64,000 bases of DNA, taken from the NCBI GenBank assembly GCA_003194525.1, contig NBIV01000035.1, forward strand, positions 248,001 through 312,000, written 5' to 3'. The notes beneath the pieces are model-generated. The model saw only the letters and a list, made by a program, of their open reading frames with translations, made no database searches and had not been told where the DNA came from. Shown here in pieces: positions 2,999-60,072 of this stretch. The position numbers and the translations under genes are program-made. Within the stretch, counting starts at the first letter, position 1. Every line of letters starts with the position of its first letter. Source of the DNA: Gracilariopsis chorda (Eukaryota; Rhodophyta; Florideophyceae; Gracilariales; Gracilariaceae).

Positions 2999-4074
2999 TG
3001 CCCTTCACGTCTCCCTCCGTCCAAGACGGTGTTTCATTGGAAGAACAAAATCGCCAGCTAGCCTTCGCCTCCAATTTGATCCGCGAATCATGTCTTGCGC
3101 TACGTCTTTCTCAACGCGTATGTGCCAACGCGCAAATGTTACTGCATCGCTTCTATACTCAGGTTTCCATCGTTGCCCACTCTACCATATGGGCGGCAGG
3201 AGCTTGTATATTGCTCTCAACCAAGTTGGCTGATGAAACCCGATCCTTGCGTCATGTAGTCAACGTTGTTTACGACCGCGTTATCCACCGTCAAAACATG
3301 CCTGTTGAAACTGTCGCCGTGGGCGGTCGTAACTGTCGTCGACCGATCGAGTACTACGGCGCAGAAGGCTATCATTGGAAGTTTGCTTTCATTGCAACGG
3401 AGCGACACATCTTGAAAGAGCTGGGCTTTCGACTGGCGATGGAGCTTCCGCATAACTTCATTCTAATATTCGTTAATACTCTTCGCGACAAAGCGGGTGC
3501 CCCCGGGTGGTCTGAGTGCGAAGGCGATTTCAAGGCTCTGTTGCAAACGGCTTGGGACTACGCAAATGACCTGCTTATCGATCAACTATGTGTCCGAGAA
3601 GCACCCGAAGCACTGGCGTGCTCATGCATCTCGCTGGCGACGGAACACTGTGAGGGATCTTTACCTGACGGATGGGAAACTGTACTAGGATCCAGTAAAG
3701 AGGAGTGTGAAAGGCTAGCTTTATATATTCGAGCGCTTTATAAACGCTCGGCATGGATTTCTTGCTACAAGAACTATTCCCGCGCTCAGGTTCTTGAAAA
3801 GTTTTCGTTGAGAGAACTGCCCCATGACCAAGTGCAAAGGTCACACATCTACGAAGATGATACTGGGAAGAGGTTACGGTCCGTGGAAGAATCTCATGAA
3901 AGTGTGCAAGTATCAAAGAAACTCTGCGAAAACGAGAACAGCACCGTCGACGACGCGACTTCTAAGTCTGACAAGAACGTGGGCGAATTGGACAACCCAA
4001 GCGTAGAGAATGGTGCATTGAAACCGGTTCGACGGAAACGAAAGCGTCGTCGCTTTGAAGACGCAGCAGGATAG
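2998..4074 (+). CDS. CCNL: Cyclin L-type cyclin
   Basis: 358 aa from the ATG at 2998. Cyclin L pairs with CDK11-type kinases and works in Pol II transcription and splicing. The N-terminus (SPSVQDGV) aligns with the conserved PSMQDG start of the cyclin L core, so little is missing. Two cyclin folds follow: LLHRFYTQVS...HSTIWAAGACILLSTK (about 40-75) and the second from about 165. The helix linking them contains ILKELGFRLAMELPH. The tail is charged and ends in a basic KRKRRR nuclear-localisation-like stretch rather than a long RS domain. ATG 2998 shares its A with the TGA of the upstream gene; an upstream spliced exon is the alternative. Confidence 0.85.
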   Translation: MPFTSPSVQDGVSLEEQNRQLAFASNLIRESCLALRLSQRVCANAQMLLHRFYTQVSIVAHSTIWAAGACILLSTKLADETRSLRHVVNVVYDRVIHRQNMPVETVAVGGRNCRRPIEYYGAEGYHWKFAFIATERHILKELGFRLAMELPHNFILIFVNTLRDKAGAPGWSECEGDFKALLQTAWDYANDLLIDQLCVREAPEALACSCISLATEHCEGSLPDGWETVLGSSKEECERLALYIRALYKRSAWISCYKNYSRAQVLEKFSLRELPHDQVQRSHIYEDDTGKRLRSVEESHESVQVSKKLCENENSTVDDATSKSDKNVGELDNPSVENGALKPVRRKRKRRRFEDAAG

Positions 4075-15361: not shown

Positions 15362-16177
15362 GGTTAGCTTTGCGGCAAGATGCTCGAAAGAATCGCTCGC
15401 CGACAGTATATGCGGAACAAGTGTTGCGTGAGTGTGTTTCGTTGGGACAGGGGAAGGGCGGGCGATTCAGGATTGCAGCAGGCCTCCCGCAAGAACGGCC
15501 TCTCGGGGAGCTGGGCCGGAAATAAGTGGGCTTCGGGTCGGGGACGGCTGCTCTTGGGGGCGGTTGCTGTTGGGGGAGGCGCATTGGCTCGTCTCGGGCA
15601 AAAATCATTCGATGCCATTCGATGCCATTCGATGGGAAAGGGCGCATCCGCTGCACGCTCACGACCACAGACTGCATTCTGCGGCAGCAGTGTGCTCGCG
15701 TTCCTCGCGGCCGCGTTGCGCTTCGCAGTAGTGCGTCAAGCGCCATTTCCATTCGGTCGTGGCCACGTGTTCCCGCTGTCGCGGTGCACTCCCGTTATTA
15801 GATCGGTGCATCCGTTGTGTTGCCAATAGTAGCCGCCCCTCTCATTGCGGTCCACCGCGTCGGGCAGTTTTTGCGCCGTTTTGTTGGTCCATTTGTGCCC
15901 CTACGTCGCACCTGCGCCACGCAGCGCACACCTGGGACTGTTCGTGCGGGCCGGCGCTTCACAAGACCGTGGCGCGCACCGTCGAGCGTGGAAGCGCACG
16001 TCCGCAACAGCGCACTTTAGCGCGGAATACCGCGATAGTATCCTCGGCGTATTGCTTCTTTTCGGTCACCTCTCTTTGCTCAAGTGTAAATAATCCGTTC
16101 TCTTCCCCTTCGTGCCCGTCCCCCTTACCGCATCCCTTCAGCATCGCGCTTTCACTCCCGCGCCACATCCTCCCATT
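15362..16177. promoter_or_regulatory. Divergent GC-rich intergenic region HHL1-like / NOT4
   Basis: 816 bp of GC-rich DNA between diverging starts. All three frames are open over long parts on both strands because of composition, not coding. Contains a four-copy 10-bp repeat at 15606-15644 and many GGCCGCG-type CpG blocks around 15700. Confidence 0.45.
15606..15644 (+). repeat. Four tandem copies of ATTCGATGCC
   Basis: Three perfect copies and a fourth variant (ATTCGATGGG) in direct tandem, in the shared promoter region of the HHL1-like and NOT4 genes. The 10-bp period places copies on the same helix face. Confidence 0.9.
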
Positions 16178-19100
16178 ATGGCCGAAGAGGAGGAAGAAGT
16201 GCCCCAGTGCCCTTTGTGCCTTGAGGAGCTAGATGCCACTGACCGTGCGGTCGAGGCTTGCCAGTGCGGCTACCAGATATGCCTTTGGTGTCTTCATCAC
16301 ATCAGAGAGCAGCTCAACAGTCGCTGCCCTGCTTGTCGAACCCCGTACCAAGAGCAGAACTTCAAGTATGCACAAGTCAATCCCGAGGAAGCCGCCAAGG
16401 AGGCCAAAGAGCGTGCCACAGCGAAAAAGGAGCGCGAACGGAGGGAGAAGATGAAGGAGATTGAGAAAGAGAGAGCTAGGGCCGCCGCCGTTTCTCTGCA
16501 AAAGGCGAAGAGTAACCTCAAGCATGCTCGAATTCTTCAGAAGAATCTCGTGTATATAATTGGTCTTAGTTTGACCTTGGCTCGCGAGGAGGTCATTCGT
16601 CGCGCTGACATGTTTGGCAAGTTTGGCAGAATGCTTCGCATTCTTGTCAATCGATCTCACCCGTTCAATGCCGACGCCCCGGGAGGTCCAAGCATTTCGG
16701 CTTACGTGCAATATGTAAGGGACTCGGATGCGTCTGCTGCGGTGCGCGCCATGAACAATGCTGTTTTCGATGGAAGGGAGATCAGGTGCGCGATTGCCAC
16801 AACGAAGTACTGCGATTCGTTTGTGCGAAACGCCGCTACCACCTCAGATCCAACTGCAGCTCACTATTGTGGTAATCAAAACTGCATGTACTATCATTCA
16901 TTGTCAACTGAGGAGACTCTTACCCGGGAAGAAGTTCTAGCGCGTCAATTTGGACCCCCACCACCTGCTCATCTCTTCTTACCCGCTCCGTCAAATGGAA
17001 GGCCTATCAACGCTCAACAATCCATCCACCCCAGATTAGCCGCTCACTCAGTCGCGTCCGGACTTGTCCCTGCAATGCGGCCACCAGCGCGCCCGCCTAT
17101 CGTTAATTCCTCCGCCATACCGTCAACCTCATCTGCGGCCCCTTCAATTCACCCCCCTTCGTCTCTCTCTTCCGTGCCGATCCCTTCAACGAATACTAGT
17201 ATGGCAGTCGCTAAAAATCCGAACAACTCCACAGGGAACTTATCAAGTGATTCTGCTTCACCGCGCCAACATATGACTTCTGAGACAGGCACAAATCTAC
17301 GACCTGGGTCGTCTCCGAACCGAACTCCACCCGAGTCTCCCAGGAATTCTCGAAGACCTGGAATACGGCTTCAGCGATCCCCTCCCTCCCGCGATCCTGT
17401 GTCGAGCAAGTACCCTCGTTCTACAGGCACGTCGACCTCCTCGAAGCCTCCAACCACTTCCGTTCCACTGCCGTCTACCGCAGGATGGGCGTCATCCCAA
17501 GCCCCACCAACCACGCGTTCATCCCCAAGACATGGACAGACGACATTTGATGATGCGCCCACCTCGCGGCCTAAGTTACGCTTTCATCCCAGGCGTTCAC
17601 GAGAGCCTTCTCCACCTCCCGGGTTTGAGAACAGAGTGGCAATGTCTCCTCCTGTGCCGTCCAAACCGCCCGGCTTCGACATTCCAGTTTCTTCTCCGTC
17701 GAGCGATATCCGAGCAAGCGCAAGCAATGCTCGTCCAAAGGATTTGACAACAGGAACTGGTAATCCACCGTCTACATCCGCGTTACCTCCGCCGCCCGGC
17801 TTCGGTCCTGTACCCGTTTCGCAAAATACTGAAACAGGACAGGCCTTGGCGAACGACGTTGCTGCGGCTTGGGCGCAGGAGGCAGCATCGGATAAAGTGT
17901 TCTCAAATGAGGATAAGAGGTCGAGAACCGATTTCATCGGGTCAGTTGGGCGAGGGAATGCCCGCATCCCACAAGATAACCCTGATTCGCGTTCTGAGTT
18001 AGCTCAGGTATTAGCGAAAATAGGTGGAGATCTTGGAGTCTCAAGCGAATTCAAGAGCCTGCACTCTTCTTCGTTCTTCACGTCGGAGCAAGCGAATAGA
18101 AATCCATTTCTATCTGGTTCTGTTGGGAATGGCGGAAGTGGCAAGATGATGCATCCAGCGACCCCTGCTCACCTGGGCTCTCTGTTTGGTAACCATGCGA
18201 CGGGTAGGGGATGCCCTGTTCCTTCAACGCCAACTACGACTACGAATGCACCGGTGAACCCAAATGGGTCACCCCAAACTTCAGCTCAAAGCAGTACACT
18301 CTCAAGCACGTACCGCCTAGCGAATCGAAAGTCAGAGCTTAAATTGTCTTCTCCTCGGCGAAACACGTCTCGATTCGGTTTTGCTCAACGAGAAATCGCG
18401 AACGCCATTCCGGGATCCCGAGTTCCCAGATCTGCACTTCAAGCGAGATCAACACCATTTCAAGTGGGTCCTCAAACCTCAAGTGCTTCGGAGATGTTCG
18501 TGCGTCCACCTGCAGCAAACGAGCTCCACAAACAACCAATGCTGATGAACGAGTTGCTTCAATCTGCGAAACCAACGAACCCGCTTGTACACGGACCATC
18601 AAGACAGAATAGGTCTCGATTCGACTTTGCGGACCACCGGTCACCACCGTTGACAGCGAACTATCGTACAAGGGCTGTACCAACGACTAGCAACCCGCCA
18701 CCGAAGAACTCGCCGCCTGTGCCAAGAAGCTATGCAACCCGTAATGACTCCATCGCATCTTTAGCCCAACTTTCAACACAAGAAAAGCTTGCATCTATCT
18801 TTAATTCCGCACAAATGTCTGGAGAAGCTCTTCCGCCCATGCCATCTTTTGACGCACACGTCGATCCTCTAGCAAATCCCAACATTTCCGTGATCCCTTC
18901 CAAACCAGTAGCGCCTGATCAATCGAACCGACCCTTTCGTACGGTATCCCGTTCAGCGAATGTAGCATCAGAAGACAAGCCACGAGTAACATCCACATTG
19001 CAGTCTCGCCAACCCACGATGCCCCCGCCGGGTTTTAGGGAGGCCACGCCTGGCATTTCGCCGGAATCCACTACAGTCGACAGTCCCTCGACTACTTCGG

Positions 19101-19831
19101 GCGTGGCAAAAAGCGTGGCATCTGGCGGAGAAACATCGAGAAGGAAAAGCAAGGAAATTGCACCACAAGTTGCTTCTGTGGACGAATCTGTGAGCTCTGG
19201 GACGGATAGTCATGACGACGATCGGCGACGGGCAAAGGCTCAAAAAAAGCGCGAGAAGAAGAGCAGACAACTGCGAGATTCGACAGAACGAACCTATGTT
19301 GAAAGGAAGCAGAAGAACGGGAAGGGACAGACCTCTGCTCCAGCTGTTCAACCAGTGCAAGTGACTCAACCGGTGAAAGTAACTCAACCTCATCACACCT
19401 CTCAAACTGGGAAAACCGTGTTGTCGGCTCAGCAACCGCACTCCACACAAACGGTTCAAGCGAAAGTGACTAAGCCGCCAAACGTTGAACGACAGAGAGT
19501 GAGCCAAGCGGTTGAACCAGTGAGGCCGTCTACCTCAAAGCCTGCGAACAAATCGAAGCGTGATAATGAACTCGTATCTGAGAAGTCGGGAAACGTGGCC
19601 GTGGCTGAGAATTCTCAGAAGACTGCAAGTGAGAAACAGATTCACAGGTCTGCAGATGATTCCGCGGTAGTTTTGATACCTTCTAAGATGTCAGAAGACC
19701 CAGGGAAGTACATGTCGGTATCAGAGTTAGAACGTGAAGTTGAGGCAGCGAGGGCCAGGGAAGCGCAACTTCAGGACAAGCTTCTGGAGCTGCAGAGGAG
19801 AATCCGCAGCTATGATAATGTTAGAACCTAA
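16178..19831 (+). CDS. NOT4: NOT4/CNOT4-like RING E3 ubiquitin ligase
   Basis: 1,217 aa from ATG 16178 (MAEEEEEVPQCP); the longer frame begins with GTG in 5' UTR. NOT4 is the ubiquitin-ligase subunit of the CCR4-NOT complex. It starts with the unusual C4C4 RING (residues 11-53: CPLC...CQCGYQICLWC...CPAC), then a charged linker helix, an RRM at about 130-215 and a CCCH finger near 208-235 ending CGNQNCMYYH. Two thirds of the protein is Ser/Pro-rich and disordered, with four PPGF motifs and a C-terminal coiled coil (ELEREVEAARAREAQLQDK). It is about twice the length of human CNOT4 because of the disordered part. Convergent with CDC26. Confidence 0.93.
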   Translation: MAEEEEEVPQCPLCLEELDATDRAVEACQCGYQICLWCLHHIREQLNSRCPACRTPYQEQNFKYAQVNPEEAAKEAKERATAKKERERREKMKEIEKERARAAAVSLQKAKSNLKHARILQKNLVYIIGLSLTLAREEVIRRADMFGKFGRMLRILVNRSHPFNADAPGGPSISAYVQYVRDSDASAAVRAMNNAVFDGREIRCAIATTKYCDSFVRNAATTSDPTAAHYCGNQNCMYYHSLSTEETLTREEVLARQFGPPPPAHLFLPAPSNGRPINAQQSIHPRLAAHSVASGLVPAMRPPARPPIVNSSAIPSTSSAAPSIHPPSSLSSVPIPSTNTSMAVAKNPNNSTGNLSSDSASPRQHMTSETGTNLRPGSSPNRTPPESPRNSRRPGIRLQRSPPSRDPVSSKYPRSTGTSTSSKPPTTSVPLPSTAGWASSQAPPTTRSSPRHGQTTFDDAPTSRPKLRFHPRRSREPSPPPGFENRVAMSPPVPSKPPGFDIPVSSPSSDIRASASNARPKDLTTGTGNPPSTSALPPPPGFGPVPVSQNTETGQALANDVAAAWAQEAASDKVFSNEDKRSRTDFIGSVGRGNARIPQDNPDSRSELAQVLAKIGGDLGVSSEFKSLHSSSFFTSEQANRNPFLSGSVGNGGSGKMMHPATPAHLGSLFGNHATGRGCPVPSTPTTTTNAPVNPNGSPQTSAQSSTLSSTYRLANRKSELKLSSPRRNTSRFGFAQREIANAIPGSRVPRSALQARSTPFQVGPQTSSASEMFVRPPAANELHKQPMLMNELLQSAKPTNPLVHGPSRQNRSRFDFADHRSPPLTANYRTRAVPTTSNPPPKNSPPVPRSYATRNDSIASLAQLSTQEKLASIFNSAQMSGEALPPMPSFDAHVDPLANPNISVIPSKPVAPDQSNRPFRTVSRSANVASEDKPRVTSTLQSRQPTMPPPGFREATPGISPESTTVDSPSTTSGVAKSVASGGETSRRKSKEIAPQVASVDESVSSGTDSHDDDRRRAKAQKKREKKSRQLRDSTERTYVERKQKNGKGQTSAPAVQPVQVTQPVKVTQPHHTSQTGKTVLSAQQPHSTQTVQAKVTKPPNVERQRVSQAVEPVRPSTSKPANKSKRDNELVSEKSGNVAVAENSQKTASEKQIHRSADDSAVVLIPSKMSEDPGKYMSVSELEREVEAARAREAQLQDKLLELQRRIRSYDNVRT

Positions 19832-20428: not shown

Positions 20429-20653
20429 TTATTTCTCTTCTTTCGTGTTCCCAAGGACAAAGCCCAGTCTATCGCGCAAAGACATGCCTTGGACAGCATT
20501 CTCGCGAGCCGATAGTTCGGTCAAAGTCTCTGCACGTGAACCTTTTCCCTGAGTCTCTTGTTCGAATTTCTCCCTAGCCTGATTCCTCAGCTGGTCTAGT
20601 TCATCGATATCTGCTTGATCAACTTCGATCAACGTAGGCTTTCGACGTAGCAT
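20429..20653 (-). CDS. CDC26: Anaphase-promoting complex subunit CDC26 (APC12)
   Basis: 74 aa, ATG at 20653. The N-terminus MLRRKPTLIEVDQADIDEL matches the invariant CDC26 start (MLRRKPT-x-[LI]-E-[LV]), which inserts as an extended strand into the TPR superhelix of CDC16/APC6 and stabilises it. The middle is helical and charged; the end SLRDRLGFVLG resembles the conserved RIGY/RLGF tail. Length is normal for the family. The gene diverges from GINS PSF1 across 465 bp containing an E2F-type site. Confidence 0.9.
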   Translation of the reverse strand: MLRRKPTLIEVDQADIDELDQLRNQAREKFEQETQGKGSRAETLTELSARENAVQGMSLRDRLGFVLGNTKEEK

Positions 20654-21118
20654 TGTTCAATTTCGGAAAGGCTGCAACAATTCCAGCAACGTTGTTGAAC
20701 CAGGTACCCACTCTTAATTATGAAGAGGTCTAAAGAGACTTCGTCGAGATGCTTCGGTTCTTCGACTCGGCTGTTGGCTCAAACACGGTCAACCACAGTT
20801 GCTCAGAAAGACTGAATTCGTGAACGTGAGCCTCACCTGGGTACCGGTACCGTTGGTAGATACGACGTGCTGTACAACGTCCGGGTTGCGAAGGTGATTT
20901 TGTTTTTTAAACTCAAAAATCAAACATCAAAGGACCAAAGATGACAGTGTTAAGCAAACCGAAACAGCTTCCCGCCAAAATTACAATCTCTACGGAAACG
21001 TAGAGGCTCTAATGCCGACAATCGCTCTCCTACACAAGTGTGGTTCCAAGTGCTTCACTCCATCACCCCACACCACAAGCGCTTCTGCTTGAATGTGCCC
21101 TCACCACAGCTCCATCAA
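20654..21118. promoter_or_regulatory. Divergent promoter region CDC26 / PSF1
   Basis: 465 bp between diverging starts of an APC/C subunit and a replicative-helicase subunit. The perfect E2F-type site at 20969-20980 lies about 140 bp from the PSF1 ATG. No TATA box recognised. Confidence 0.6.
20969..20980. promoter_or_regulatory. E2F-type site TTCCCGCCAAAA
   Basis: The reverse complement TTTTGGCGGGAA is a textbook E2F/DP element (TTTSSCGC family). It lies 139 bp upstream of the PSF1 ATG and 316 bp from the CDC26 ATG, so it can act on either gene. Function is inferred from the motif and the gene class. Confidence 0.65.
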
Positions 21119-21752
21119 ATGCACACTACTTTTGCCTCTCAGCTCCTGGAGGAACTGCGCAAAACAAAATGGCTTCCACCATACAGAGTAAGTTCTTCTA
21201 TAAAGCTTCTACATCGAAACGATTCATATCATCTAACCGCATCTTCAGGATGGTGGATTGCGGCAAGTGGCTGCCGAAATCAAGGAGTTACTTGAACCGT
21301 TCTTAGAAATCATGCAAAGCAGACGCAGTGAAATCAGGACAAACAAAAGCTATGCCGCGGGGGCACTTGTATTCTTTCGTTCCGTCCAAAGGAACAAGCG
21401 CTGCGCCCTCGCGTATTTAATGAATCGTTTACGCCGTATCCAACAGTATCGCTGGGAAATGGGGGCGTGCGCAGCCGCCCATCTTGCAGAAAACATGTCA
21501 GCCCCTGAGTCTCACTTTCTAAAAGAGTACAACAATCTTGTCGGAAGGTATTCACAAACCGTTGATCTCGACCTCACAGCTGATATTCAACCTCCGAGAG
21601 ACCTATTCATTGAAGTCCGCGTGCGATATGACTGCGGTTCTGTTGTCACCGAGTCTGGACCTGTGGCTCTCAAACCCGGTACAGCACACTTTCTTAAGAG
21701 ATCTGACGTGGAACATCTTATTCGACAGGGCAGGCTTGACCATATCGTATAG
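21119..21752 (+). CDS. PSF1: GINS complex subunit PSF1, two exons
   Basis: PSF1 is one of four GINS subunits of the CMG replicative helicase. Exon 1 is 21119-21187 (MHTTFASQLLEELRKTKWLP...), the intron is 21188-21248 (GTAAGT...TTCAG, 61 bp) and exon 2 runs to 21752; total 190 aa, close to human PSF1 (196). Splicing joins PYR to DGGLRQVAAEI, reproducing the conserved DGLRQV block. Further matches are RNKRCALAYLMNRLRRI...RWEMG, and the C-terminal B-domain with LFIEVRV...LKPGTAHFLKRSDVEHLIRQG. Without exon 1 the helical N-terminus would be lost. Convergent with the sulfotransferase gene; only 13 bp separate the two stop codons. Confidence 0.95.
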
Positions 21753-21765
21753 CGATTGTCGTTCA

Positions 21766-22839
21766 TCACGCCACAAATTTACACTTGGGAATACCCTTCA
21801 AGCGTTGTTCATACAGAGCCTTAGCGAATATGTAAAGTTTAAGGTCTGCTTCTTCAACTCGTAGCGCAGCGGTTCGGATATGTTGCGGAATTACATTCAA
21901 GACTCGACTCGTCTGGCCTCGAATGTTTCTACGTCCCCGTGTGATGTTCGTATAGCGCAGATTCACATTGCGCCCCAAACGACCTCGACTGCCACAAGCT
22001 ACGTTCAGCAACTCGGACAGCATGCATGCCGATTGCGCATATCTGTCCTGTAGACCCACAAAGAAGAAGTGATCCACAAGGTGTCGCTTCGCTTCAAGCA
22101 AAGCTCCACTTCTGGGGCGAGTAAAGCTATCAATAACCCGAGAGCGTATATTTGCCCACAGTTCGCCAGGATTAGTATCCGTAGACAATCGCTTAACCAT
22201 GTAGTTTTGGTTTTTGTGAAGCAGATATTCATGAAGCTCCTCAGCTTGTTTGCTGGAGTGATTCGCTTCAAAGTGTTGAAAGTGCGATATCTTTCTACGC
22301 AGCGGATGTCGGACAAACGTAAAATACCGTACTTCACGTTCGGGGAAAAAGTGGTGAGCACCGAAATATTGATGTCCCATGATCATATCAATGGCGTTAA
22401 GCTTTGATGGACGTAGTTTGGCCAAGTCGTCTAAGTTGCAGTCTGTGTCCTGTGAGTTTTTGTGACGATTGAAGTACCAAGCCGTAAAACGAGAATCGGG
22501 ATATGCTGGATGGCAGGTGTGATAAAGAGTAAAATTGTTCTTCTTGGCAAAAGAGTATAGAGCATCTTTTAAACTGTTTCCTCCCGTCTTATGAAGATGC
22601 AAAAAAATATACAAAGGTTTCTTCCGGGGGCATGGCAACGAGCGTTCTTCTCCGAGTTGCTGCAGAGATTGCAGTAAAGACGGTTGGGTTGCATTTGTCT
22701 TAAGGAGATACGCGACTATGCCAAGAACTGATAGAAAGCCGAGACATAGCCGCTGGACAGAGTTTGGCGATAATTTGTATCGTTTCTTAAAGTTGGTCCA
22801 GGTGGTTCTTTGTCGATTGTAGGTGAAGGGCAAAGGCAT
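21766..22839 (-). CDS. Golgi-type carbohydrate sulfotransferase (Sulfotransfer_2 family)
   Basis: 357 aa with type II topology: a short basic N-tail, one membrane anchor at about 30-47 (LCLGFLSVLGIVAYLL), then a lumenal catalytic domain. The 5'-phosphosulfate loop is FLHLHKTGGNSL and the 3'-phosphate-binding segment is FVRHPLRRKISHF, both typical of heparan/uronyl 2-O- and 6-O-sulfotransferases. The donor would be PAPS. In algae such enzymes are expected to sulfate cell-wall or matrix polysaccharides; the acceptor cannot be read from sequence. LDAH lies 378 bp upstream on the same strand. Confidence 0.82.
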   Translation of the reverse strand: MPLPFTYNRQRTTWTNFKKRYKLSPNSVQRLCLGFLSVLGIVAYLLKTNATQPSLLQSLQQLGEERSLPCPRKKPLYIFLHLHKTGGNSLKDALYSFAKKNNFTLYHTCHPAYPDSRFTAWYFNRHKNSQDTDCNLDDLAKLRPSKLNAIDMIMGHQYFGAHHFFPEREVRYFTFVRHPLRRKISHFQHFEANHSSKQAEELHEYLLHKNQNYMVKRLSTDTNPGELWANIRSRVIDSFTRPRSGALLEAKRHLVDHFFFVGLQDRYAQSACMLSELLNVACGSRGRLGRNVNLRYTNITRGRRNIRGQTSRVLNVIPQHIRTAALRVEEADLKLYIFAKALYEQRLKGIPKCKFVA

Positions 22840-23217
22840 AGTGCAGTGTCATGGTCACCAGACCTTGAACACTAACGGTTGTTACTCGCGTTGGCCCCGT
22901 TCCTAAGGTAGCCTAGAGTGAGGAATGGAGGATATACTTGTACGCAAGCTGGCCAGAGGTGTTGATATGTCAGTCATGCTCAATTGCATTGAGCGATGAG
23001 ATGGGTACAGCGAGTAGATACAAAAGATGTGGTTCGCAGATTGACAAAAATTCAAGCGCCGTTGAAGTAACGAGATTTGTTCAATTACCAATGGATGGGA
23101 CAGAGGCGTTACCGATACGTAGCAGAAGGCTAACACTTGCATGCAAGTTAATGTTATCGAAGCGACGAGTTTTTTCTCAACTGCTATCATTGCGCTTTTC
23201 GAAGGGGGTTCTGTAAT
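22840..23217. other. Intergenic region upstream of the sulfotransferase gene
   Basis: 378 bp between the sulfotransferase ATG and the LDAH stop, both on the minus strand. Short frames on both strands match nothing. Should contain the sulfotransferase promoter and LDAH 3' UTR. Confidence 0.45.
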
Positions 23218-24327
23218 TCAAGAGGAAGCGCTTCCGTTCGGAACGGCTTGGTTAACAGTGTGGTGAATCCTTTCGGCGATCCAAGGCGCGATTGCGCGAA
23301 CAAGACGGTCGGTTTCGGAATCGCTCAAGACAAATGCATGCGACACCTTCTGCAAATGCTGAATTTCCAAGCGCCTTTCAAAGTGCTGACGTATATGGCT
23401 TCTAGCATCTTCCGGGCACCAGCGATCATTATCAACGCACAGCGTGAGAGAGTGTTGCGGAAGTCGGTGCGCTTGAACGTGAGTAATTCTCTTCATTTCG
23501 TCTCTAGCAAGAGATGTGACATTTGCGTACAAAGCCCTTCTACGGCCGTCGACAACGGCTCGAGTGACGTCTTGCACACTGTGGGAGTGTCGGGCACGTT
23601 GTAACAGGGCCTCCCTGAACATTGGGGGTAGAAAGGCGGTGGCCAGCCAGGCGCCCCATGAAGTGAGCGCCCAATTGTCTTGAATGAGGAGTCGCAGAAA
23701 TGGACCGGCGCAGTAGGCCATCTGCCATATACACGGCATGAGCATGACGAGATTGGCGTTTCGCGCAATCTTGTCTCCCAGACTGTCCAGCACTCGCAAC
23801 GACAGGAAGGCGCCGTACGAATGACCGACAAAGATAAAGTTGTCTCGCATATCAGTCATTTCACGCAGATAATGAATGTAGTACGCCACGTGATCTTGTA
23901 TGACGAATTCAGTATCTCCATTAAGTTGTCGAACATCATGTCCGGGTAATCCGAGCGCATGCAGAGATACGTGATTGCGAACATCGTGCGGAAGACGCGT
24001 ATGAAGCTTGTGAAGGAGGGGACGATAATACTCGATGACACCGGGATTACCAGGAGCCAAGACGATGTGCGTATGGGGGGTAGCCTTTTTTGAAGGTACT
24101 ATGCGCAATACCTCGGCGCGTACTGACGTGGGTGAAGTGAAGATATCGCATTGTGGGGCGCGTTGGACGCTGAGCGTGGCGGCGCGGAGGGCGGTGCGCG
24201 GCTTGTGGATTACGCGACGGGGGGGGATCTTGGAGCGGGCCATCGGGAGGCTGTGCGCTTGTTGAGGCAGTGGAGTGGCGGTCAGTAGCGGCCGTATCCA
24301 CGCACTCACTCCCACCGCGCTCCGCAT
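23218..24327 (-). CDS. LDAH: LDAH-like alpha/beta hydrolase (lipid droplet-associated hydrolase)
   Basis: 369 aa from ATG 24327; a second in-frame ATG at 24243 would give 341 aa. The frame extends further upstream only from a GTG. The family signature is clear: IVLAPGNPGVIEYYRPLL, HALGLPGHD, the nucleophile elbow GHSYGAF, the hydrophobic LVMLMPCIWQMA, and a catalytic histidine in KVSHAFVLS. LDAH proteins associate with lipid droplets and are proposed lipases or esterases, with the activity debated. The extra N-terminal 30-60 residues are basic and hydroxylated and could be an organelle presequence, which would be unusual. Divergent from the CDF gene. Confidence 0.82.
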   Translation of the reverse strand: MRSAVGVSAWIRPLLTATPLPQQAHSLPMARSKIPPRRVIHKPRTALRAATLSVQRAPQCDIFTSPTSVRAEVLRIVPSKKATPHTHIVLAPGNPGVIEYYRPLLHKLHTRLPHDVRNHVSLHALGLPGHDVRQLNGDTEFVIQDHVAYYIHYLREMTDMRDNFIFVGHSYGAFLSLRVLDSLGDKIARNANLVMLMPCIWQMAYCAGPFLRLLIQDNWALTSWGAWLATAFLPPMFREALLQRARHSHSVQDVTRAVVDGRRRALYANVTSLARDEMKRITHVQAHRLPQHSLTLCVDNDRWCPEDARSHIRQHFERRLEIQHLQKVSHAFVLSDSETDRLVRAIAPWIAERIHHTVNQAVPNGSASS

Positions 24328-24673
24328 TGCGCGTGAGTGAGGGCCATCGCCACGCGGCTGATGATGCACCGCTGCTTGCCGTTTTGTGAGCACTTCGCTC
24401 AGCTGCAGCCGTACATTTGCATTGTGTACGTTTTGTGGGTACAGGTATAGCGTCGAACCGAAAAAACAAAGCTCTACCCTTGGTACAACAAATGGACAAG
24501 TCCGCGCCACCGACGCCGAGCACCTTTGTGTGGATATCTCTTAGACTCTACAAACGTAAAGAGTTCGCAGTCTTTCAGTCTATCACTCATCGTTAACGCC
24601 GCCGTTGTAGCTTCGCGTTGGGCTGTCTGCTTGCGCCGCCACAACTTGCGCGAGGCTCTCGCCCTCATCGCCG
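24328..24673. promoter_or_regulatory. Divergent intergenic region LDAH / CDF
   Basis: 346 bp between diverging starts; shorter if LDAH begins upstream. GC-rich on the LDAH side. No clear promoter element. Confidence 0.4.
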
Positions 24674-25534
24674 ATGCCAGTCGTGTCGCTTTCCTCCTCG
24701 CACATTTACGCCACCTTCACCCTAGTCTTCACAACTCTGCTACTACAAACCTCCATCCACGATGACCATCCGCACGCCATAGCGCGCGCCTCGCTCCAAT
24801 TTCTCACCGCGCTCGCGCTACTCCCCGTCTGCAAACGCCCGCAACAACCAAAGTCTCTCACCGCAAGATGGCCCGTGCTAGCCGCCTTTCTGCTCTGTCT
24901 CACCCTTCTCATTGACGCCGTGCTCCGCGTTCTCACCGCGCTGGAGGTGCTTCTGTACAACCTTCCCCGTGTAATCTTTCAATCTCATTTCGCGCTCGTT
25001 CTCGCCCGCCTTCTCGTTACGTGTTTCGCCATGTTTGCGTTACGCACCTTGGCAGCGCCCCCCACTTCGAAACACACCCCGCCAAGATCCCCCGCAATTC
25101 GCGCAATGTACATTCACGCAGTTGGTGCAACCCTGGCAAATGCATCAGATTTGCTCGGGCTCGTGTGTAATTCAGCGCTTCCCTCTGCCATTTTTGACAC
25201 CCTGGCCTCTATCTTTACCATACTTATCGTTGTACCGCTTTTTCGTCACACGACCAGAATACTCATGCACGCCGCTCCATACGGTATTGGTGCTACCATC
25301 GAGGCGAGGAGAGACGCCGTTATGAAGCTTGATGGCGTGCTTCACTGCGGTGATATCCACATCTGGGAGGAAGGCGAGGGTCTTGTTGTCGGTACTATAT
25401 GCGTGCTTGTCGAAATTCACGTTGATAAGGCCAGCGTGTTGGACACTACTGCCCGCGCTTTTGACGGTATTGTAGATGATCTTACCATCCAGGTCGAAAG
25501 CTGTCGTTCCGATGATGATCAACATCGCATGTGA
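24674..25534 (+). CDS. Cation diffusion facilitator-like membrane protein with altered metal site
   Basis: 286 aa from ATG 24674. Several hydrophobic helices are followed by a cytosolic domain that ends as in CDF/ZnT proteins: FDTLASIFTILIVVPLFRHTTRIL, then LDGVLHCGDIHIWEEGEGLVVGTICVLVEIH. The helix that normally holds the HxxxD zinc-binding pair reads HAVGATLANASD, so the aspartate position is alanine, and the expected partner site in an earlier helix (LLIDAVLRVL) lacks the histidine. It is shorter than most ZnT5/ZnT7 or MTP proteins. It may be a non-transporting partner, as ZnT6 is for ZnT5, or may carry another ion. Confidence 0.65.
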   Translation: MPVVSLSSSHIYATFTLVFTTLLLQTSIHDDHPHAIARASLQFLTALALLPVCKRPQQPKSLTARWPVLAAFLLCLTLLIDAVLRVLTALEVLLYNLPRVIFQSHFALVLARLLVTCFAMFALRTLAAPPTSKHTPPRSPAIRAMYIHAVGATLANASDLLGLVCNSALPSAIFDTLASIFTILIVVPLFRHTTRILMHAAPYGIGATIEARRDAVMKLDGVLHCGDIHIWEEGEGLVVGTICVLVEIHVDKASVLDTTARAFDGIVDDLTIQVESCRSDDDQHRM

Positions 25535-26553
25535 CTGTTTTTTTGTTCTGCCCCCATATCTTACCTTTTGTAATATGCCTCTGTCGTCTTTGTACATCTC
25601 TGGTCCTATCATCACCTCTTGTTTCAATATACGTTCGTTTCCTTTGTACGTTCATTCTGCTCCTAACCTCACGTTTCGCCGTGCATTTTTGCAACAACCA
25701 TACTTCTCTGCGTACGTTACGAAATTCTTCCCTCGTATCGCACTCTTGTGCATTCTATTCTGTGTGTGTTATCCTCTACATGCTTCCTGAAAAGTGCCTT
25801 CAATCGTTCGTTGATGAACGTGAGTAACATCGTCCCACACATTGTCCCACTAGTTCTCGAAACTTTGTCGCCCTGCTTGTAATGATCTCTTACATAACTT
25901 GACACCACGCATTATCTCGTTAGTCTTCAAAGGTAGCTAATCACGTAGCTACGAGCCATGCCAATCTGACAAGTACTTTTAAGAAAATGATTCCCCTGTC
26001 ATGCCGTCATGAGCCATGGTGAGCCCATATCAAACCAATGCTACATCCCTTCACCTTCATTTTTCTCTGATATCCAAAAGGAGGCTATCGTGAACCAGAG
26101 ACGTCGGTGATGCGACCATCATCCGAATTCACAGCAAATCGGCCCGCTTTTCTGACAACCCGACAAAACACCAAAAAGGGACTCAGGATAAACAAATCTT
26201 CCTATATCAGCCATCACTCAGATTCTGCCACGAAACCATATGCGTTTAGCGTGTTCCTGCTTTTCGACTCATCAAGTGCACGCTGTTGGAGGATGAGACG
26301 CAACGATTCGGGACGCTCTTGAACTAAGACAAAGCCACAGTAAACCCCTGCTAGAGTCCTTTCCCTACTTCATGCACATGGAGCCAATAGCAAGTCAGGC
26401 CCCACGCTGTTCAATGTGTTTGTTTTCGCATGGTTCTACGGTTCTGTATTTAAACACCGTCACTCCATTCTAAGTATACTCTCCGGAGTTGGGTTTATCT
26501 TTGTAGCGGGTGACTCCTCTCAGTCGTTTGAGCAATAGCAACAGCACAGAGAA
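25535..26553. other. 1-kb intergenic region
   Basis: Pyrimidine-rich on the plus strand just after the CDF stop (3' UTR-like). No coding frame that I recognise. A TATA-like TATTTAAA at 26447 sits about 100 bp before the next ATG. Confidence 0.45.
26447..26454 (+). promoter_or_regulatory. TATA-like element
   Basis: TATTTAAA about 100 bp upstream of the ATG at 26554, a plausible core promoter for the type I membrane protein gene. Motif only. Confidence 0.35.
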
Positions 26554-27690
26554 ATGTGGGAAGTGAGGCTAATCTGTTTTGTCACATCTTTGAGTTTACT
26601 GTTTCAATGTTTGCGGGCCCAAGAATGTACAGCACCACCAGATACCGACTTCGACAGGGAACCCAACTTCTGGTGCAGCTTAGACGCAGTCGTCTACATA
26701 ACAGACGAATGTACAACACGAATTGAAGAATTCATCGAGTCTCCATGGGCACACGGCCGGCTTGTGCGATACATTCCTCATCAAAAGAACCAGGTCATCA
26801 AAGAAATCCGAGCATTCAACATGAAAGACGGACTACGGACGTCATTGAGTGTAACTGCAGAGGCAGATTCGGCAAACACGAACACAGCAGTAATCATCCG
26901 GGCCCCCGTGTCGAAACAGGCTGTACAAATCGCTCTTCAATACCAAGTGGAAAACGGGGTAGAACTGTTCAGATCCTGCGAAGATACGTCTTCTTTGTTC
27001 ACCACAGCCGCAGAAGGAGCGGCGGCGAGGTATCAACTGGTGAAATGGAGCTCTGGAGGAAAGTCTGCTGGAGAAATTAAGCGTCTGGGAGCGTTGTTCT
27101 CACTTACGGAATCGCCAAGGATGACGTACGTGGAAGCTCCTATTAGAAAGCCCTCTGAATTTGATGTGGCTACTGCAACAAACAGTTCGTTTCCCTCTGA
27201 ACAGATCCGAGTGAGTCACCGCGGGAATTCAAGTGGGTTAGAGCCTGCGTCTATTATGTTCTACTTTGTTGCCAGTCTTACTAGGGGTAGTGCAATTTGT
27301 GCGAACACGCGGAACTGCGAGAGGGAAGCGAAGATAGCGAAAGAAAAGTACAAATCAGATGGACTGACCAAAGTGATGATTGGGCTTGGAGTGGCGCTCG
27401 GAGTGCTTGTAACGGTTGTGGGAATTGGGTTATGGATCTCGTGCTGCAAGAGTTTGACGAAGAGAAAGACTGGGAATATGGATAATTTACCACTTAGCCT
27501 TCGACACTTTGCATATGATACTGGTGACGATAAGCAGAATGGACAAAGGAGACAATGGACTAAAGGAATAAACAATACTGGGAGGAAGGAATACCTTGCT
27601 ATTGACCTGTCTCCAGGAAACCAACTGGGCTCGACACCGACGATAGAGCAGCCGAACGCAAAAGTGGCATCGAAAGACATCACAGAGTGA
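26554..27690 (+). CDS. Type I membrane protein with signal peptide, unknown
   Basis: 378 aa. Residues 1-22 are a clear signal peptide (MWEVRLICFVTSLSLLFQCLRA). The exposed region (about 23-275) contains several cysteines (CTAPP, FWCSLD, DECTTR, RSCEDT, AICANTRNCER), likely disulfide-bonded, and three NSS/NTS-type N-glycosylation sites. One membrane span (MIGLGVALGVLVTVVGIGLW) is followed by SCCKS, a possible palmitoylation site, and a polar cytosolic tail of about 85 residues. No known domain is recognised. It may be a surface protein specific to this lineage. Confidence 0.6.
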   Translation: MWEVRLICFVTSLSLLFQCLRAQECTAPPDTDFDREPNFWCSLDAVVYITDECTTRIEEFIESPWAHGRLVRYIPHQKNQVIKEIRAFNMKDGLRTSLSVTAEADSANTNTAVIIRAPVSKQAVQIALQYQVENGVELFRSCEDTSSLFTTAAEGAAARYQLVKWSSGGKSAGEIKRLGALFSLTESPRMTYVEAPIRKPSEFDVATATNSSFPSEQIRVSHRGNSSGLEPASIMFYFVASLTRGSAICANTRNCEREAKIAKEKYKSDGLTKVMIGLGVALGVLVTVVGIGLWISCCKSLTKRKTGNMDNLPLSLRHFAYDTGDDKQNGQRRQWTKGINNTGRKEYLAIDLSPGNQLGSTPTIEQPNAKVASKDITE

Positions 27691-27954
27691 AATAGTCGTT
27701 TCTCGAAAAAGGTTTAGCAAACAGGTGATGAAAATGAAGAGCAACAAAACATGCATGTTTACAAAAGAAACAAGTGTACAAAGGACAGAAAAGAAAGGCA
27801 CTTGATCAAACGCGGGTAGCAAGGGTAAAAACACAATACAGTAGATTGGCGTGCATGCGCATAATGGGCGCTACAAAGAAAACGTTGTAACATTATGTTT
27901 TCACAAGGCAAGTAAGAATGGATGGGTTCGGGACAGGGAGTGCGGTGGCTAACT

Positions 27955-28276
27955 CTAGTACTTTCCGTCTTTCGGCCTTCTGAAGAGCAGAATATGGGGC
28001 TCTGGACGATGAATAGCGTAGTGGACCCAGCCACGACTTTGCTGGACGCCTATGGAACGCCATTCATTTTCGAGTAGTAAACGATCTTTTGGGACATGTT
28101 TGGCGATGTCCGCGGGGAGAATGACGTGCCTGAGCAGCGTTTTGCGAGCGTTAGCAAGTTAGTATGGGATGGTTTTGCAGAACGCCGTGGGGGCGACGAG
28201 CGGAGTTTTGGACTCACCTGTACTCGTAGACGTCGTCGTAGTACTTGTCCGAATATTGGATTTGGTGGGAGGGCAT
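27955..28276 (-). CDS. CKS1: Cyclin-dependent kinase regulatory subunit CKS1, two exons
   Basis: CKS proteins bind CDK1/2 and phosphorylated substrates and help processive phosphorylation. Exon 1 is 28276-28218 ([19 protein letters not shown]), the intron is 28217-28130 (GTGAGT...CTCAG, 88 bp) and exon 2 is 28129-27955; product 77 aa. All hallmarks are present: [37 protein letters not shown] and [12 protein letters not shown]. The hinge HxPEPH (here HRPEPH) that sets strand exchange is intact. Neither exon stands out as an open frame. Diverges from CDC45 across 520 bp with two E2F-type sites. Confidence 0.95.
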
Positions 28277-28629
28277 AGCGGCGGTTGCACGTGCAGGACG
28301 GGTGTTAGAGGCGATAGAGTGTGTGCGCTCAGCGGCGGGAAGGCGCAGCGCTCAGGGCAGCGCGACAAAAGTCGAAGGCGTTCGCTTCGCTTAAATACGA
28401 ATGAAGGCAGCCATTAGCGATTTGAAATTCTGCGAATACACGTGTATTCCAATGTGCATTACATGCTTCTTACAGCTGCCTTTCCTCAAGTTGCGGAACG
28501 GAAAGGTACGGCTGGGGTGCGCAGTACACGTCACGCCCGTCACGAAGAGTCACGCGGCCGTCACGGATGACAGCTGGACACTGCGCCACAGCGTGAGCTA
28601 CATCCGATGTAGTCCATCGTAACTCTACA

Positions 28630-28637
28630 GCGCGAAA
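28630..28637. promoter_or_regulatory. E2F-type site GCGCGAAA
   Basis: Reverse complement TTTCGCGC fits the E2F consensus TTTSSCGC exactly. It sits 25 bp from a second site, as is common in tandem E2F elements. Confidence 0.55.
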
Positions 28638-28661
28638 CGAAAGCGCAACAATGGATCCAAC

Positions 28662-28672
28662 TTCCCGCCAAA
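28662..28672. promoter_or_regulatory. E2F-type site TTCCCGCCAAA
   Basis: Same core as the site in the CDC26/PSF1 promoter (TTCCCGCCAAA is shared over 11 bases). Lies 125 bp before the CDC45 ATG. Confidence 0.65.
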
Positions 28673-28796: not shown

Positions 28797-31070
28797 ATGG
28801 TGGTCTTTCCAGGAAGCGAGTCGCCCGACGCTTGGGACCTCGTCTGCGGTCGAGTGCCCGTCGACAGCAAGCGCGCCACCGCCCTTCTTCCCCAGCGCGC
28901 CCCAATTTCACAAGGTCCCGTGCTCATCTTTACCGCCGCCGCAGACCCGGATGCGCTCGCCGCCGTTCGCACGCTTACCGCCTTGCTCAAGGCCGATTTA
29001 CTGCGCTATGAGGTTCACCCCGTCGCCGGTTACACCCATCTGCGCGATAAGTTTGACGTGCTTGTTCGTGGCGATGACGCTGTTGAACCTCGTGCTGTGC
29101 TATGCGTTAATTGCGGCGCTGCTGTTGATCTTGAGGCTATTCTCGCCATTTCGAATGACCACGCCAATGATCTGGCTTCGCAGTTTAGACTTTTTGTCAT
29201 TGACTCTCATCGACCGTATCACCTTAAGAATATCACCAGTGAGCGCGTCGTTATCTTTGACGATCAAGATACATTTGCGCGTGCTGATATTCCTATTACA
29301 TTGGGCATTGAAAATGAGTGGGGGGTCGTACCAGACACTGATTCCTCAGATGACGAACACCACTATTCATCAGACCACACTGATCACCTCTCAAGCGACC
29401 ATGATACCGCATACGAACAAAAACCTTCGCAACTTTCAACTTTTCAACTTGAGAATCATCAATCGCTTTCGCCTGCCCCAACACATCAAACCGCACATCA
29501 GCAATCTGAAGCCCCACACGAGCACTCACACCGACCTGCATCATCGAACGCATCTCAGCACAGACACCTCCATTCGCACTCGCGCATCCCGAGTACATCG
29601 CATCCTCATGGCACCGAATCCAGTCCCGACGACTCTGAGGACAGTGAAAGGGAGGCCTATTTGGAACAGATAATTGAAGATGACGTCGATCTTGGTGGAG
29701 CCGAAGCGTCCGGTTCCGAACAAGAAGAAGCCATTCGCCGTGGCAACCGGAAACGCCGAACAATCCCCTCTGCAAACAGTGGAAAGGCCAACAGAAGACG
29801 AAAGAGGAAACGCCGATCTCGCCGATCTCGCCGTTTTGATATTGCTGAAGCACACGAGCGTAAACGCTTGCGTGAATATTACTCTTCTGCTACTGTCGCC
29901 TTGAGTTCCGCATGCCTCAGTCATAGGATTGCGTTCGCTTTAAATAGGTCAAATATTGACACTCTGTGGATGGCCATTGTCGGCGCAACCAGTCAATTGT
30001 TCACCAGTGCAATCTCAGAACAAGCTGTCAGCGAGTATCTTACCCCGTATCGCGGTCAAGTGCAGCTGATGAACGATAGTGCTAACAATGGCAATGACCA
30101 GAACCGTAATACATCTCGCGTCCAAAACGTTGGCTATGTACCTTCCTGTCAAAGCGGCGCGGTCAATCGTATAGCAGAATCTGTTGAGCTTCGTTTAGAT
30201 CTTCTTCGACATTGGACTCTGTATCATTCCCTGCTCTACAGCTCTTACACCTCGACAAGGCTTGCCACATGGCGACAAACCGGAAAACGCAGGATGCTGG
30301 AAATGCTAGCAACGCTTGGAATTCCACTTCGAGACAGTCGACAGAAATGGTGTTACATGAAACAAACGCACAAGGTAGCCCTTGAAGAAGAACTGCAAAA
30401 AGCGATAGATCGCTTTGACCTTGGACAATCAATCCAGTATGACAGTTTTGTACGAACGGTTCCGGGACACAGAGGCGATATATCTGCGTCGGATTTCGTT
30501 TTTGCTGTGACCGCTTTACTTGAGTTCGATGAACCCACCCAAAAAGTCGCTCCGGGAACAAGTCATGAATCTCTTCTCCTGGAGAGATTCTGGAGAGCAT
30601 ATGATGCAATGGACCCTCGAAAGACTGTCTTACTCGAAGCCGGTCTTGACATGGCCATCTCTGCGCAGCAAATGACGGCTGAAATTGGTGGCGAAGTTAT
30701 CGAGCGTCGTAAGTTCGTGCCAAGCGGGCCTTTTCGTTACGTATTCCTTCGGGATCAGCAGTTCAAGGAATTTTTGAGAAATCCACTTTTGCTTCGAAGG
30801 CTTGCTCAATTCCTGAAGACGGCGCTATTCCGACAAGGAGCAAAGGATAAGCCGTTCATTATTATCGCTCCGGATACTGCGCGACGGGTTTGGATTGCGG
30901 TATCTGCGATCACGTACGGTCAAAAGAATGACTTTGGTCACAGATTTATGAAAGCTGCGGAACAAAACGGTAGCCAAATCACATATGACGGGTTTGATTC
31001 CTCTGTTTGTGAAATCCCGGACGGCCAAGAGATTGAGTTTGTTCGATACCTTCATGATGTCATGCGGTGA
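28797..31070 (+). CDS. CDC45: CDC45 replication factor
   Basis: 757 aa from ATG 28797. CDC45 joins MCM2-7 and GINS in the CMG helicase. The N-terminal DHH-like fold shows VLIFTAAADPDALAAVRTL, VLCVNCGAAVDLEAIL and FVIDSHRPYHLKNI, all conserved in CDC45. An acidic, His/Ser-rich insert (about 180-300) ends in a strong basic cluster (RRRKRKRRSRRSRRF), a likely nuclear signal. The C-terminal half carries HWTLYHSLLYSSYTSTRLATW and LEMLATLGIPLRDSRQKWCYM, again diagnostic. Length is somewhat above the human protein (566 aa) because of the insert. Divergent from CKS1, convergent with RRP15. Confidence 0.94.
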   Translation: MVVFPGSESPDAWDLVCGRVPVDSKRATALLPQRAPISQGPVLIFTAAADPDALAAVRTLTALLKADLLRYEVHPVAGYTHLRDKFDVLVRGDDAVEPRAVLCVNCGAAVDLEAILAISNDHANDLASQFRLFVIDSHRPYHLKNITSERVVIFDDQDTFARADIPITLGIENEWGVVPDTDSSDDEHHYSSDHTDHLSSDHDTAYEQKPSQLSTFQLENHQSLSPAPTHQTAHQQSEAPHEHSHRPASSNASQHRHLHSHSRIPSTSHPHGTESSPDDSEDSEREAYLEQIIEDDVDLGGAEASGSEQEEAIRRGNRKRRTIPSANSGKANRRRKRKRRSRRSRRFDIAEAHERKRLREYYSSATVALSSACLSHRIAFALNRSNIDTLWMAIVGATSQLFTSAISEQAVSEYLTPYRGQVQLMNDSANNGNDQNRNTSRVQNVGYVPSCQSGAVNRIAESVELRLDLLRHWTLYHSLLYSSYTSTRLATWRQTGKRRMLEMLATLGIPLRDSRQKWCYMKQTHKVALEEELQKAIDRFDLGQSIQYDSFVRTVPGHRGDISASDFVFAVTALLEFDEPTQKVAPGTSHESLLLERFWRAYDAMDPRKTVLLEAGLDMAISAQQMTAEIGGEVIERRKFVPSGPFRYVFLRDQQFKEFLRNPLLLRRLAQFLKTALFRQGAKDKPFIIIAPDTARRVWIAVSAITYGQKNDFGHRFMKAAEQNGSQITYDGFDSSVCEIPDGQEIEFVRYLHDVMR

Positions 31071-54253: not shown

Positions 54254-54265
54254 TTTGGCGCCAAA
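54254..54265. promoter_or_regulatory. Palindromic E2F-like site TTTGGCGCCAAA
   Basis: Perfect palindrome, matching the E2F consensus on both strands, 454 bp upstream of the eIF4A ATG. Single site in a non-coding region; function unproven. Confidence 0.4.
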
Positions 54266-54718: not shown

Positions 54719-56180
54719 ATGGCTGACAGGTGAGTTCACAACCCCCCTTTCCTGCTTTCTTAGCTCCCGCGCCGCCGTCGTTCCCGTCCAACCCTTTCCG
54801 CAGAGCCACTCAATAACTTTGACAAAGACATGTTGAGCTAATACCTCGTTTGCTTTATCCCCCGTTTGGTGCCAACCCTTTTCAACCCCCACCTCCCCCG
54901 CGAACAGTAATGGATACAACGAACCGCCGTCTGCAGACAAAACCCAACCCTCTCCTGCAGAGGCCGCCCCCGCAGACGCCCCCCCCGCCGAACAAATGCA
55001 CACCGCCGATGAAGGAAACGGCGAACTCACCACCAACTACAACACCGTCACCGAGACCTTTGACGACATGAAACTCCGCAGTGATCTTTTGCGCGGAATT
55101 TACGCCTATGGTTTTGAGAAGCCTTCCGCCATTCAGCAAAGAGCTATCATTCCCATGATCATGGGCAGGGACACCATTGCCCAGGCCCAGTCCGGTATGG
55201 GAAAGACCGCCACTTTTGTTGTCGGAATCTTGCAGAACATTGACACCTCCGTCAAGAAGGTTCAGGCTCTTATTCTTGCTCCTACCAGAGAGCTCGCTCA
55301 GCAGATCCAAAAGGTTGTTGACGCTCTGGGCGATTACATGGGTCTGCACAGTCACATTTGCATTGGTGGAACCTTGGTTAATGATGATATTCGCATCTTC
55401 CAAACTGATACCCCCCAAGTTGTTGTCGGTACCCCGGGTCGTGTTTATGATATGATCCAGCGCCGCGCCCTTGGAACCACTTCGATCAAGACATTCTGTC
55501 TTGATGAGGCTGATGAAATGCTTTCTCGTGGATTCAAGGAACAGATTTATGACGTCTTCCAATTCATGCCGTCCACGTGCCAAGTCGGTCTTTTCTCCGC
55601 CACCATGCCTAACGATGTGCTCGAGATGACCCAAAAGTTCATGCGCGATCCGCTTCGCATTCTTGTCAAGAAGGATGAGCTTACACTCGAAGGTATCAAG
55701 CAGTTCTACATCGCTGTAGAAAAGGAAGAATGGAAACTGGAAACTTTGTGCGATCTATACGAGACCGTCACCATCACTCAAGCCATTATTTACACCAACA
55801 CACGACGCAAGGTCGAATGGCTCACTGAGAAGCTCACTGAGCGTGATTTCACCGTTTCCAGCCTCCATGGTGACATGGAGCAGAAGCAACGTGATCTCAT
55901 TATGAAGGAGTTTAGGAGTGGATCCTCTCGTGTGCTTGTTACTACAGACTTGCTTGCACGTGGTATTGATGTGCAGCAGGTGTCGCTCGTTATCAACTAT
56001 GATCTTCCCACCAACCGTGAGAACTACATTCATCGTATCGGTCGTTCCGGCCGTTTCGGTCGTAAGGGTGTGGCTATTAACTTCATCACAAATGCTGATG
56101 TGGGTCCGCTCCGTGAGCTCGAACAGTTTTATAACACAACAATTGAAGAAATGCCTATGAACATTGCTGACTTGATCTAA
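54719..56180 (+). CDS. EIF4A: Translation initiation factor eIF4A (DEAD-box helicase), two exons
   Basis: 427 aa. eIF4A unwinds mRNA 5' leaders within eIF4F. Exon 1 (54719-54729) carries only MAD and part of a Ser codon; the intron is 54730-54907 (GTGAGT...AACAG, 178 bp); exon 2 runs to 56180. Motifs: Q motif [13 protein letters not shown], motif I AQSGMGKT, Ia [12 protein letters not shown] ([19 protein letters not shown]), SAT (FSATMP), RGID and [13 protein letters not shown]. The C-terminus (MPMNIADLI) is the invariant eIF4A ending. Residues 5-60 form an Ala/Pro-rich N-tail longer than in animals. Starting at the internal ATG 54996 would lose it. Confidence 0.96.
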
Positions 56181-59990: not shown

Positions 59991-60072
59991 CAGCGTGTTG
60001 TATGTGTGTGCGCGCTTGTGGGGATGCAACTAACTGCAACTTTTGCGAGGGGCGCGGAGCGGCGCTCGTTGT

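Follow-up and report, generated by a model that had tools for sequence, protein, structure and literature searches.

Two genes for subunits of the CDC45–MCM–GINS (CMG) replicative helicase, PSF1 and CDC45, lie in the 64-kb window of DNA analysed here (positions 248001-312000 of contig C35). Each is arranged head-to-head with a cell-cycle gene, CDC26 and CKS1 respectively, and each of the two intervening spacers carries sequences of E2F type. The locus thereby raises the question of what such sites mark: the helicase genes themselves, or the helicase genes together with their divergent partners. The 11-letter word common to both spacers, TTCCCGCCAAA, is very probably a strong E2F/DP site, predicted to act as a promoter-proximal element of an S-phase regulon. 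In the genome as a whole (91.3 Mb in 1081 contigs), each of the ten CMG subunit genes that were located, namely MCM2-7, CDC45, PSF1, PSF2 and SLD5, has a copy of the exact word no more than 400 bp upstream. E2F control of MCM, CDC45 and GINS genes is established in other organisms, and an identical word before each located CMG subunit gives a clean entry point for tests of S-phase control.

The two spacers and their genes

The genes and sites concerned, numbered from the first letter of the window, are as follows.

20432..20653, - strand: CDC26, subunit of the anaphase-promoting complex/cyclosome, 74 amino acids (Pfam ANAPC_CDC26, E 2.4e-7, and translation); divergent partner of PSF1
20969..20979, + strand: E2F-type site TTCCCGCCAAA (TTTGGCGGGAA on the - strand); 139 bp to the PSF1 ATG, 315 bp to the CDC26 ATG
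21119..21752, + strand: PSF1, GINS subunit, exons 21119-21187 and 21249-21752 (Pfam PSF1_C, E 9.2e-17, and Sld5)
27955..28276, - strand: CKS1, regulatory subunit of cyclin-dependent kinase, exons 28218-28276 and 27955-28129 (Pfam CKS, E 8.2e-38); divergent partner of CDC45
28630..28637, - strand: second E2F-like core TTTCGCGC (GCGCGAAA on the + strand), near CDC45, from a word search of the window
28662..28672, + strand: E2F-type site TTCCCGCCAAA; 124 bp to the CDC45 ATG, 385 bp to the CKS1 ATG
28797..31070, + strand: CDC45, CMG helicase subunit, 757 amino acids (Pfam CDC45, E 4e-130)

An earlier note on this DNA had named the four genes, and the Pfam matches bear these identities out. Both helicase genes are indeed paired head-to-head, with ATG-to-ATG spacers of 465 bp (CDC26/PSF1) and 520 bp (CKS1/CDC45). 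The exon models of PSF1 (start codon 21119, intron 21188-21248) and CKS1 (start codon 28276, intron 28130-28217) were set by eye from GT/AG borders and reading frame. The E2F-type sites which the note had placed in both spacers are present, TTCCCGCCAAA in each and GCGCGAAA in that of CKS1/CDC45; the base following TTCCCGCCAAA at 20969-20979 is A, completing the 12-mer of the note. In keeping with its statement that the window contains just two replication-helicase genes, no other was found among 28 further frames picked by eye and scanned for domains. A secondary Rtf2 RING match in the frame 16094-19828 is outscored by another RING match, and one other scanned frame has a DEK_C match.

The two exact copies of TTCCCGCCAAA in the window compare with 0.03 expected from shuffles. 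At the genome-wide rate the expectation is 0.11 copies, and the probability of finding two or more is about 0.005. A search of the window allowing one mismatch found the word nowhere beyond its two exact places. TTTSSCGC and TTTGGCGG are both core forms of E2F sites, and it was a TTTSSCGC-type motif that the earlier note had proposed. This part of it failed: neither 11-mer fits the motif, each reading TTTGGCGGGAA on the other strand, and TTTSSCGC occurs 12 times in the window against 11.3 expected, which is chance level. TTTSSCGC was dropped as a scanning motif, being unenriched in the window and missing both sites.

An identical word upstream of the helicase genes

Searches for the word across the genome, combined with searches for gene families, were used in place of a scan over all promoters. 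The exact word occurs 153 times, all copies being located, compared with 46 for the reversed word. Genes of the MCM family were located via Pfam and then named from PDB sequence matches, which identified MCM2, MCM3, MCM4, MCM5, MCM6, MCM7, MCM8 and MCM9. The genome family search for GINS found PSF2 and SLD5, both with uncertain start codons, in addition to PSF1 in the window, and did not find PSF3. MCM8 resembles the ten CMG genes in having the exact word within 400 bp upstream. At these 11 genes there are 13 exact sites, MCM3 and MCM5 having two each; their starts fall 135-360 bp ahead of the first ATG, eight of them between -135 and -171; eight are in the coding orientation and five in the opposite one. 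MCM9 has no exact copy within 13 kb upstream and carries instead the variant TTTCCCGCC about 130 bp before a likely ATG.

Of the ten genes that provide an independent test (MCM2-9, PSF2 and SLD5), nine carry an exact copy no more than 400 bp before the ATG. With the genes taken as independent, the probability of this result is 2.7e-28 at the genome density of the word; were the word thirty times as dense, it would be 5e-15. When the criterion is an exact copy no further than 4 kb upstream of the domain, the word is found at seven of eight MCM genes, all three GINS genes and the single CDC45 gene. This main count merged or left out some of the matched rows (MCM 12 to 8, PolB 13 to 8, SMC 13 to 7, MutS 12 to 9, proteasome 18 to 14, E2F 7 to 6). 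A recount by the same criterion that kept every row gave 8/12 for MCM, the extra row being a second piece of MCM3, and 3/3 for GINS. Proteasome genes, by contrast, have no exact word within 4 kb upstream (0/14 genes, 0/18 rows). The exact word marks helicase genes, not replication genes at large.

After masking of the main site, GCGCGAA, a word that bears on the second E2F-like core near CDC45, is the top 7-mer left in the 11 helicase promoters (6/11, versus 45 of 598 background tiles). As a second shared promoter element it was rejected, not being significant after 3026 tests.

Copies at other genes and in repeats

All 21 sites on contigs C1-C13 were taken as a sample, in 20 regions, the MCM3 locus among them being already known from the family search. 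Thirty frames picked by eye were searched against Pfam, with region L039 left out. Five of the 21 sites precede genes above the Pfam cut-off, and four of these five are at genes of replication or repair.

L033: probable MSH6, a MutS homologue whose N-terminal part is long; one site
L037:951-4959: MCM3 and MCMBP head-to-head; two exact sites in a 577-bp spacer
L045:786-4952: POLD2 head-to-head with MTHFR, a folate enzyme; one exact site nearly midway
L049: GPN-type GTPase; one site

The site in L032 is flanked by frames with sub-threshold PHD and hydrolase matches only.

A number of results weigh against the word as the mark of an S-phase E2F regulon. Six of the 21 sampled sites lie in or beside transposon frames (L031, L034, L040, L041, L046 and L047). 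Four of these regions (L040, L041, L046 and L047) constitute one repeat family, with 83-96% identity around the site, which falls near position 3000-3050 of each. A further nine sites have no assignable gene, and two of them, in L044 and L048, match one another at 78%; the match between L039 and L042 is at 59%. The share of repeats or transposons in the sample is thus 6 to 8 of 21 sites. Since repeats supply copies, the excess of 153 over 46 is inflated, and it was rejected as stand-alone evidence, one repeat family providing at least four of the copies in the sample of 21. The word is informative near the start of a gene but not diagnostic in isolation. The 7-mer comparison, meanwhile, is not independent support, because its 11 promoters were chosen for having the word, MCM9 being omitted, so that 11/11 for the word itself was built in; some background tiles come from regions that were fetched for containing the word, a bias which runs the other way. 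Other replication families complete the list, with the exact word within 4 kb upstream at 0/13 PolB, 0/3 RFC and 0/13 SMC rows and at just 1/12 MutS rows, whilst the E2F/DP genes themselves have no exact site in this range (0/7 rows). Other site forms must therefore be assumed at PolB, RFC, SMC and most MutS genes.

As an observation in its own right, the existence of a transposon-like repeat family with an exact E2F-type word suggests that sites of this type may be carried or dispersed by some transposons.

A palindromic form of the site

The palindromic form TTTSGCGCSAAA occurs at 101 places in the genome, compared with 29 for its reversal. Its positions relative to genes are drawn from the 50 of these 101 places that were listed, on contigs C1-C82. 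Among the matches listed, it is found within 4 kb upstream of three of six PolB rows (one of the three being a short repeated fragment on C11), of the one RFC row and of both atypical E2F gene matches; in this range it is found at 0/15 proteasome rows and 0/8 SMC rows. The distance from the palindrome to the gene start is 224 bp at POLA1, which was identified by eye through its N-terminal sequence and PolB domain, and 221 bp at an RFC gene; at the two-domain atypical E2F frame, 766 bp separate it from the first ATG. At the probable POLD1 gene it lies inside an open frame ahead of the start.

It is tempting to imagine a code of two forms, in which the asymmetric TTCCCGCCAAA would serve CMG and MCMBP, and the palindromic TTTSGCGCSAAA the catalytic polymerases, RFC and a repressor-type E2F, with the first form tying the helicase by shared firing to CKS1, CDC26 and MCMBP in their head-to-head spacers. 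Such a code is quite unlikely. MCM2, MCM6 and MCM7 have both forms, and POLD2 has the first, which counts against a clean split.

E2F and DP genes, and other origins of the word

The genome encodes a canonical E2F of 384 amino acids, with winged helix and CC-MB domains, an atypical two-domain E2F of 582 amino acids and a DP of 365 amino acids, all recognized through Pfam; further DP-like or weak frames exist. Two of these, L057:2444-3745 and L059:3289-4263, match the DP domain and also the E2F winged helix, the latter less strongly in L059. DP-like genes may thus number three, to judge from domain matches. In L056:3938-7712 the DP gene has, about 1.1 kb away, a convergent WD40-like frame which, by eye only, resembles CDC20/FZR.

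What is established here is the sequence of the site, its position, its enrichment at helicase genes, its absence from a control family and the fact that the genome encodes E2F, DP and an atypical E2F. The least probable account of the sites is chance, that is, two alike words within 64 kb that were noticed through the names of the adjacent genes. The motif was indeed picked after the fact, and TTTSSCGC is not enriched in the window, yet the nine of ten independent helicase-family genes with the exact word in 400 bp refute this explanation, to which we attach practically no probability. It is also very unlikely, albeit less so, that another GC-preferring factor, or a structural element of promoters, explains the word in place of E2F. 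The copies in repeats and the several replication families that lack the exact word would be in keeping with such a factor. Against it, the word fits the E2F/DP core, TTTGGCGG being found on one strand at all 13 sites and TTTCCCGCC on the other strand at six genes, and the genes marked are standard E2F targets; the genome, furthermore, encodes E2F and DP. The plant E2F/DP motif is quoted as TTTCCCGCC (PMC8008544). Among the marked genes, MCMBP is the homologue of Arabidopsis ETG1, described as a direct E2F target (PMC2806904).

On the E2F/DP explanation, TTCCCGCCAAA, placed some 125-350 bp before the start codons of the CMG helicase genes, would cause MCM2-7, CDC45 and GINS to be made together at G1/S. 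Within the window it would serve PSF1 and CDC45, whilst their neighbours CDC26 and CKS1 may or may not respond. Binding by E2F/DP, repression by RB and expression in S phase are all three steps that we infer from the DNA.

Are the promoters shared?

The replication and repair loci read that have the site number 13 (11 of helicase type, the MutS homologue and POLD2), and a head-to-head spacer could be set in eight of them, taking first ATGs of frames as start codons. At MCM4, MCM6, MCM8, PSF2 and the MutS homologue such a spacer is lacking or unresolvable. In the eight spacers, nine of ten sites are closer to the replication gene. The lone exception is one of the two sites in the MCM3/MCMBP spacer, where both flanking genes are replication genes, and the site between POLD2 and MTHFR is nearly central (about 380 versus 394 bp). 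Both spacers of the window have their sites off-centre, 139 and 124 bp from PSF1 and CDC45 against 315 and 385 bp from CDC26 and CKS1. Partners with a role in the cell cycle or replication make up three of the eight (CDC26, CKS1 and MCMBP); as for the rest, MCM2 faces an NYN-type ribonuclease, MCM5 a RING protein, MCM7 a mitochondrial carrier, POLD2 the MTHFR gene and SLD5 a frame that lacks a Pfam match. Head-to-head order is itself ordinary, since it is seen in 7 of the window's 21 adjacent pairs with Pfam support, counted by eye with frames below the cut-off excluded, when random strands would give about five. Divergent order was accordingly rejected as a sign of design.

It is doubtful, then, that each window spacer is a true bidirectional E2F promoter which co-expresses PSF1 with CDC26 and CDC45 with CKS1. 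Several features would be in keeping with this: both spacers are shorter than 1 kb, both partners are cell-cycle genes, the sites lie 315 and 385 bp from these partners, close to the largest of the distances seen at helicase genes (135-360 bp), and the 577-bp spacer between two replication genes, MCM3 and MCMBP, holds two sites. Set against these are the bias of the sites towards the replication gene, almost central as the POLD2 site may be, the minority of partners with related functions and the frequency of head-to-head order in the window. In the human CDT2-INTS7 promoter, moreover, E2F raised expression towards CDT2 only (PMC2194621). Sharing is possible, most plausibly at MCM3/MCMBP, of all the pairs the one most likely to have a truly shared E2F promoter.

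The E2F interpretation of the earlier note is thus strongly supported for the helicase genes, and its extension to bidirectional pairs is not; nor is its claim that the sites mark the divergent cell-cycle partners, since they lie closer to the replication gene, the partners elsewhere are mostly not cell-cycle genes and the arrangement is a common one. The enrichment it had sought at replication genes, examined in reduced form, appears at the helicase genes (nine of ten new genes, compared with 0/14 for the proteasome) and not at PolB, RFC or SMC. A shared promoter would matter more than a site serving the helicase gene, but that claim is unproven.

Comparison with known systems

A number of parallels can be drawn with the S-phase regulon controlled by E2F/DP in plants and animals. 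The core of the site and its closeness to the gene start are alike, E2F, DP and atypical E2F genes are present, and the targets correspond (MCM2-8, CDC45, GINS, a MutS homologue, POLD2, POLA1, RFC and MCMBP/ETG1). What differs is that the ten located helicase subunits here all have an identical 11-mer, a uniformity seen in this one genome. The predicted E2F-type regulon is conserved and newly mapped, and suggests that an old list of E2F targets (MCM, CDC45, GINS, POLD2 and MCMBP) has been kept. If the host is a red alga, as is presumed, the sites constitute a cis-level map of part of the E2F regulon in an organism remote from both plants and animals.

In the red alga Cyanidioschyzon merolae, two reports describe an E2F-RB-DP pathway in which E2F activates S-phase genes, these being reduced, PCNA and RNR beta 1 among them, when E2F is degraded (PMC11376382, PMC6606799). 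The two systems are alike in this respect, although the evidence there concerns effects on expression, with direct or indirect control left open for some genes in the passages cited, whereas here it consists of a map of sites. No E2F site map in any red alga is described in the titles and abstract openings of the literature searched, in which subscription journals are thinly covered. The human CDT2-INTS7 promoter likewise sets a replication gene head-to-head with another gene across an E2F-responsive spacer (PMC2194621); it differs in that E2F acts there towards the replication gene only, while in the present spacers it may act in one direction or both.

Two minor features of the window lie away from the helicase genes. 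The palindrome TTTGGCGCCAAA at 54254-54265 precedes a DEAD-box helicase frame (54837-56177), with about 730 bp between it and the first Met of that frame, and the GC skew is strong (+0.30) at 56001-60000 compared with other parts of the window.

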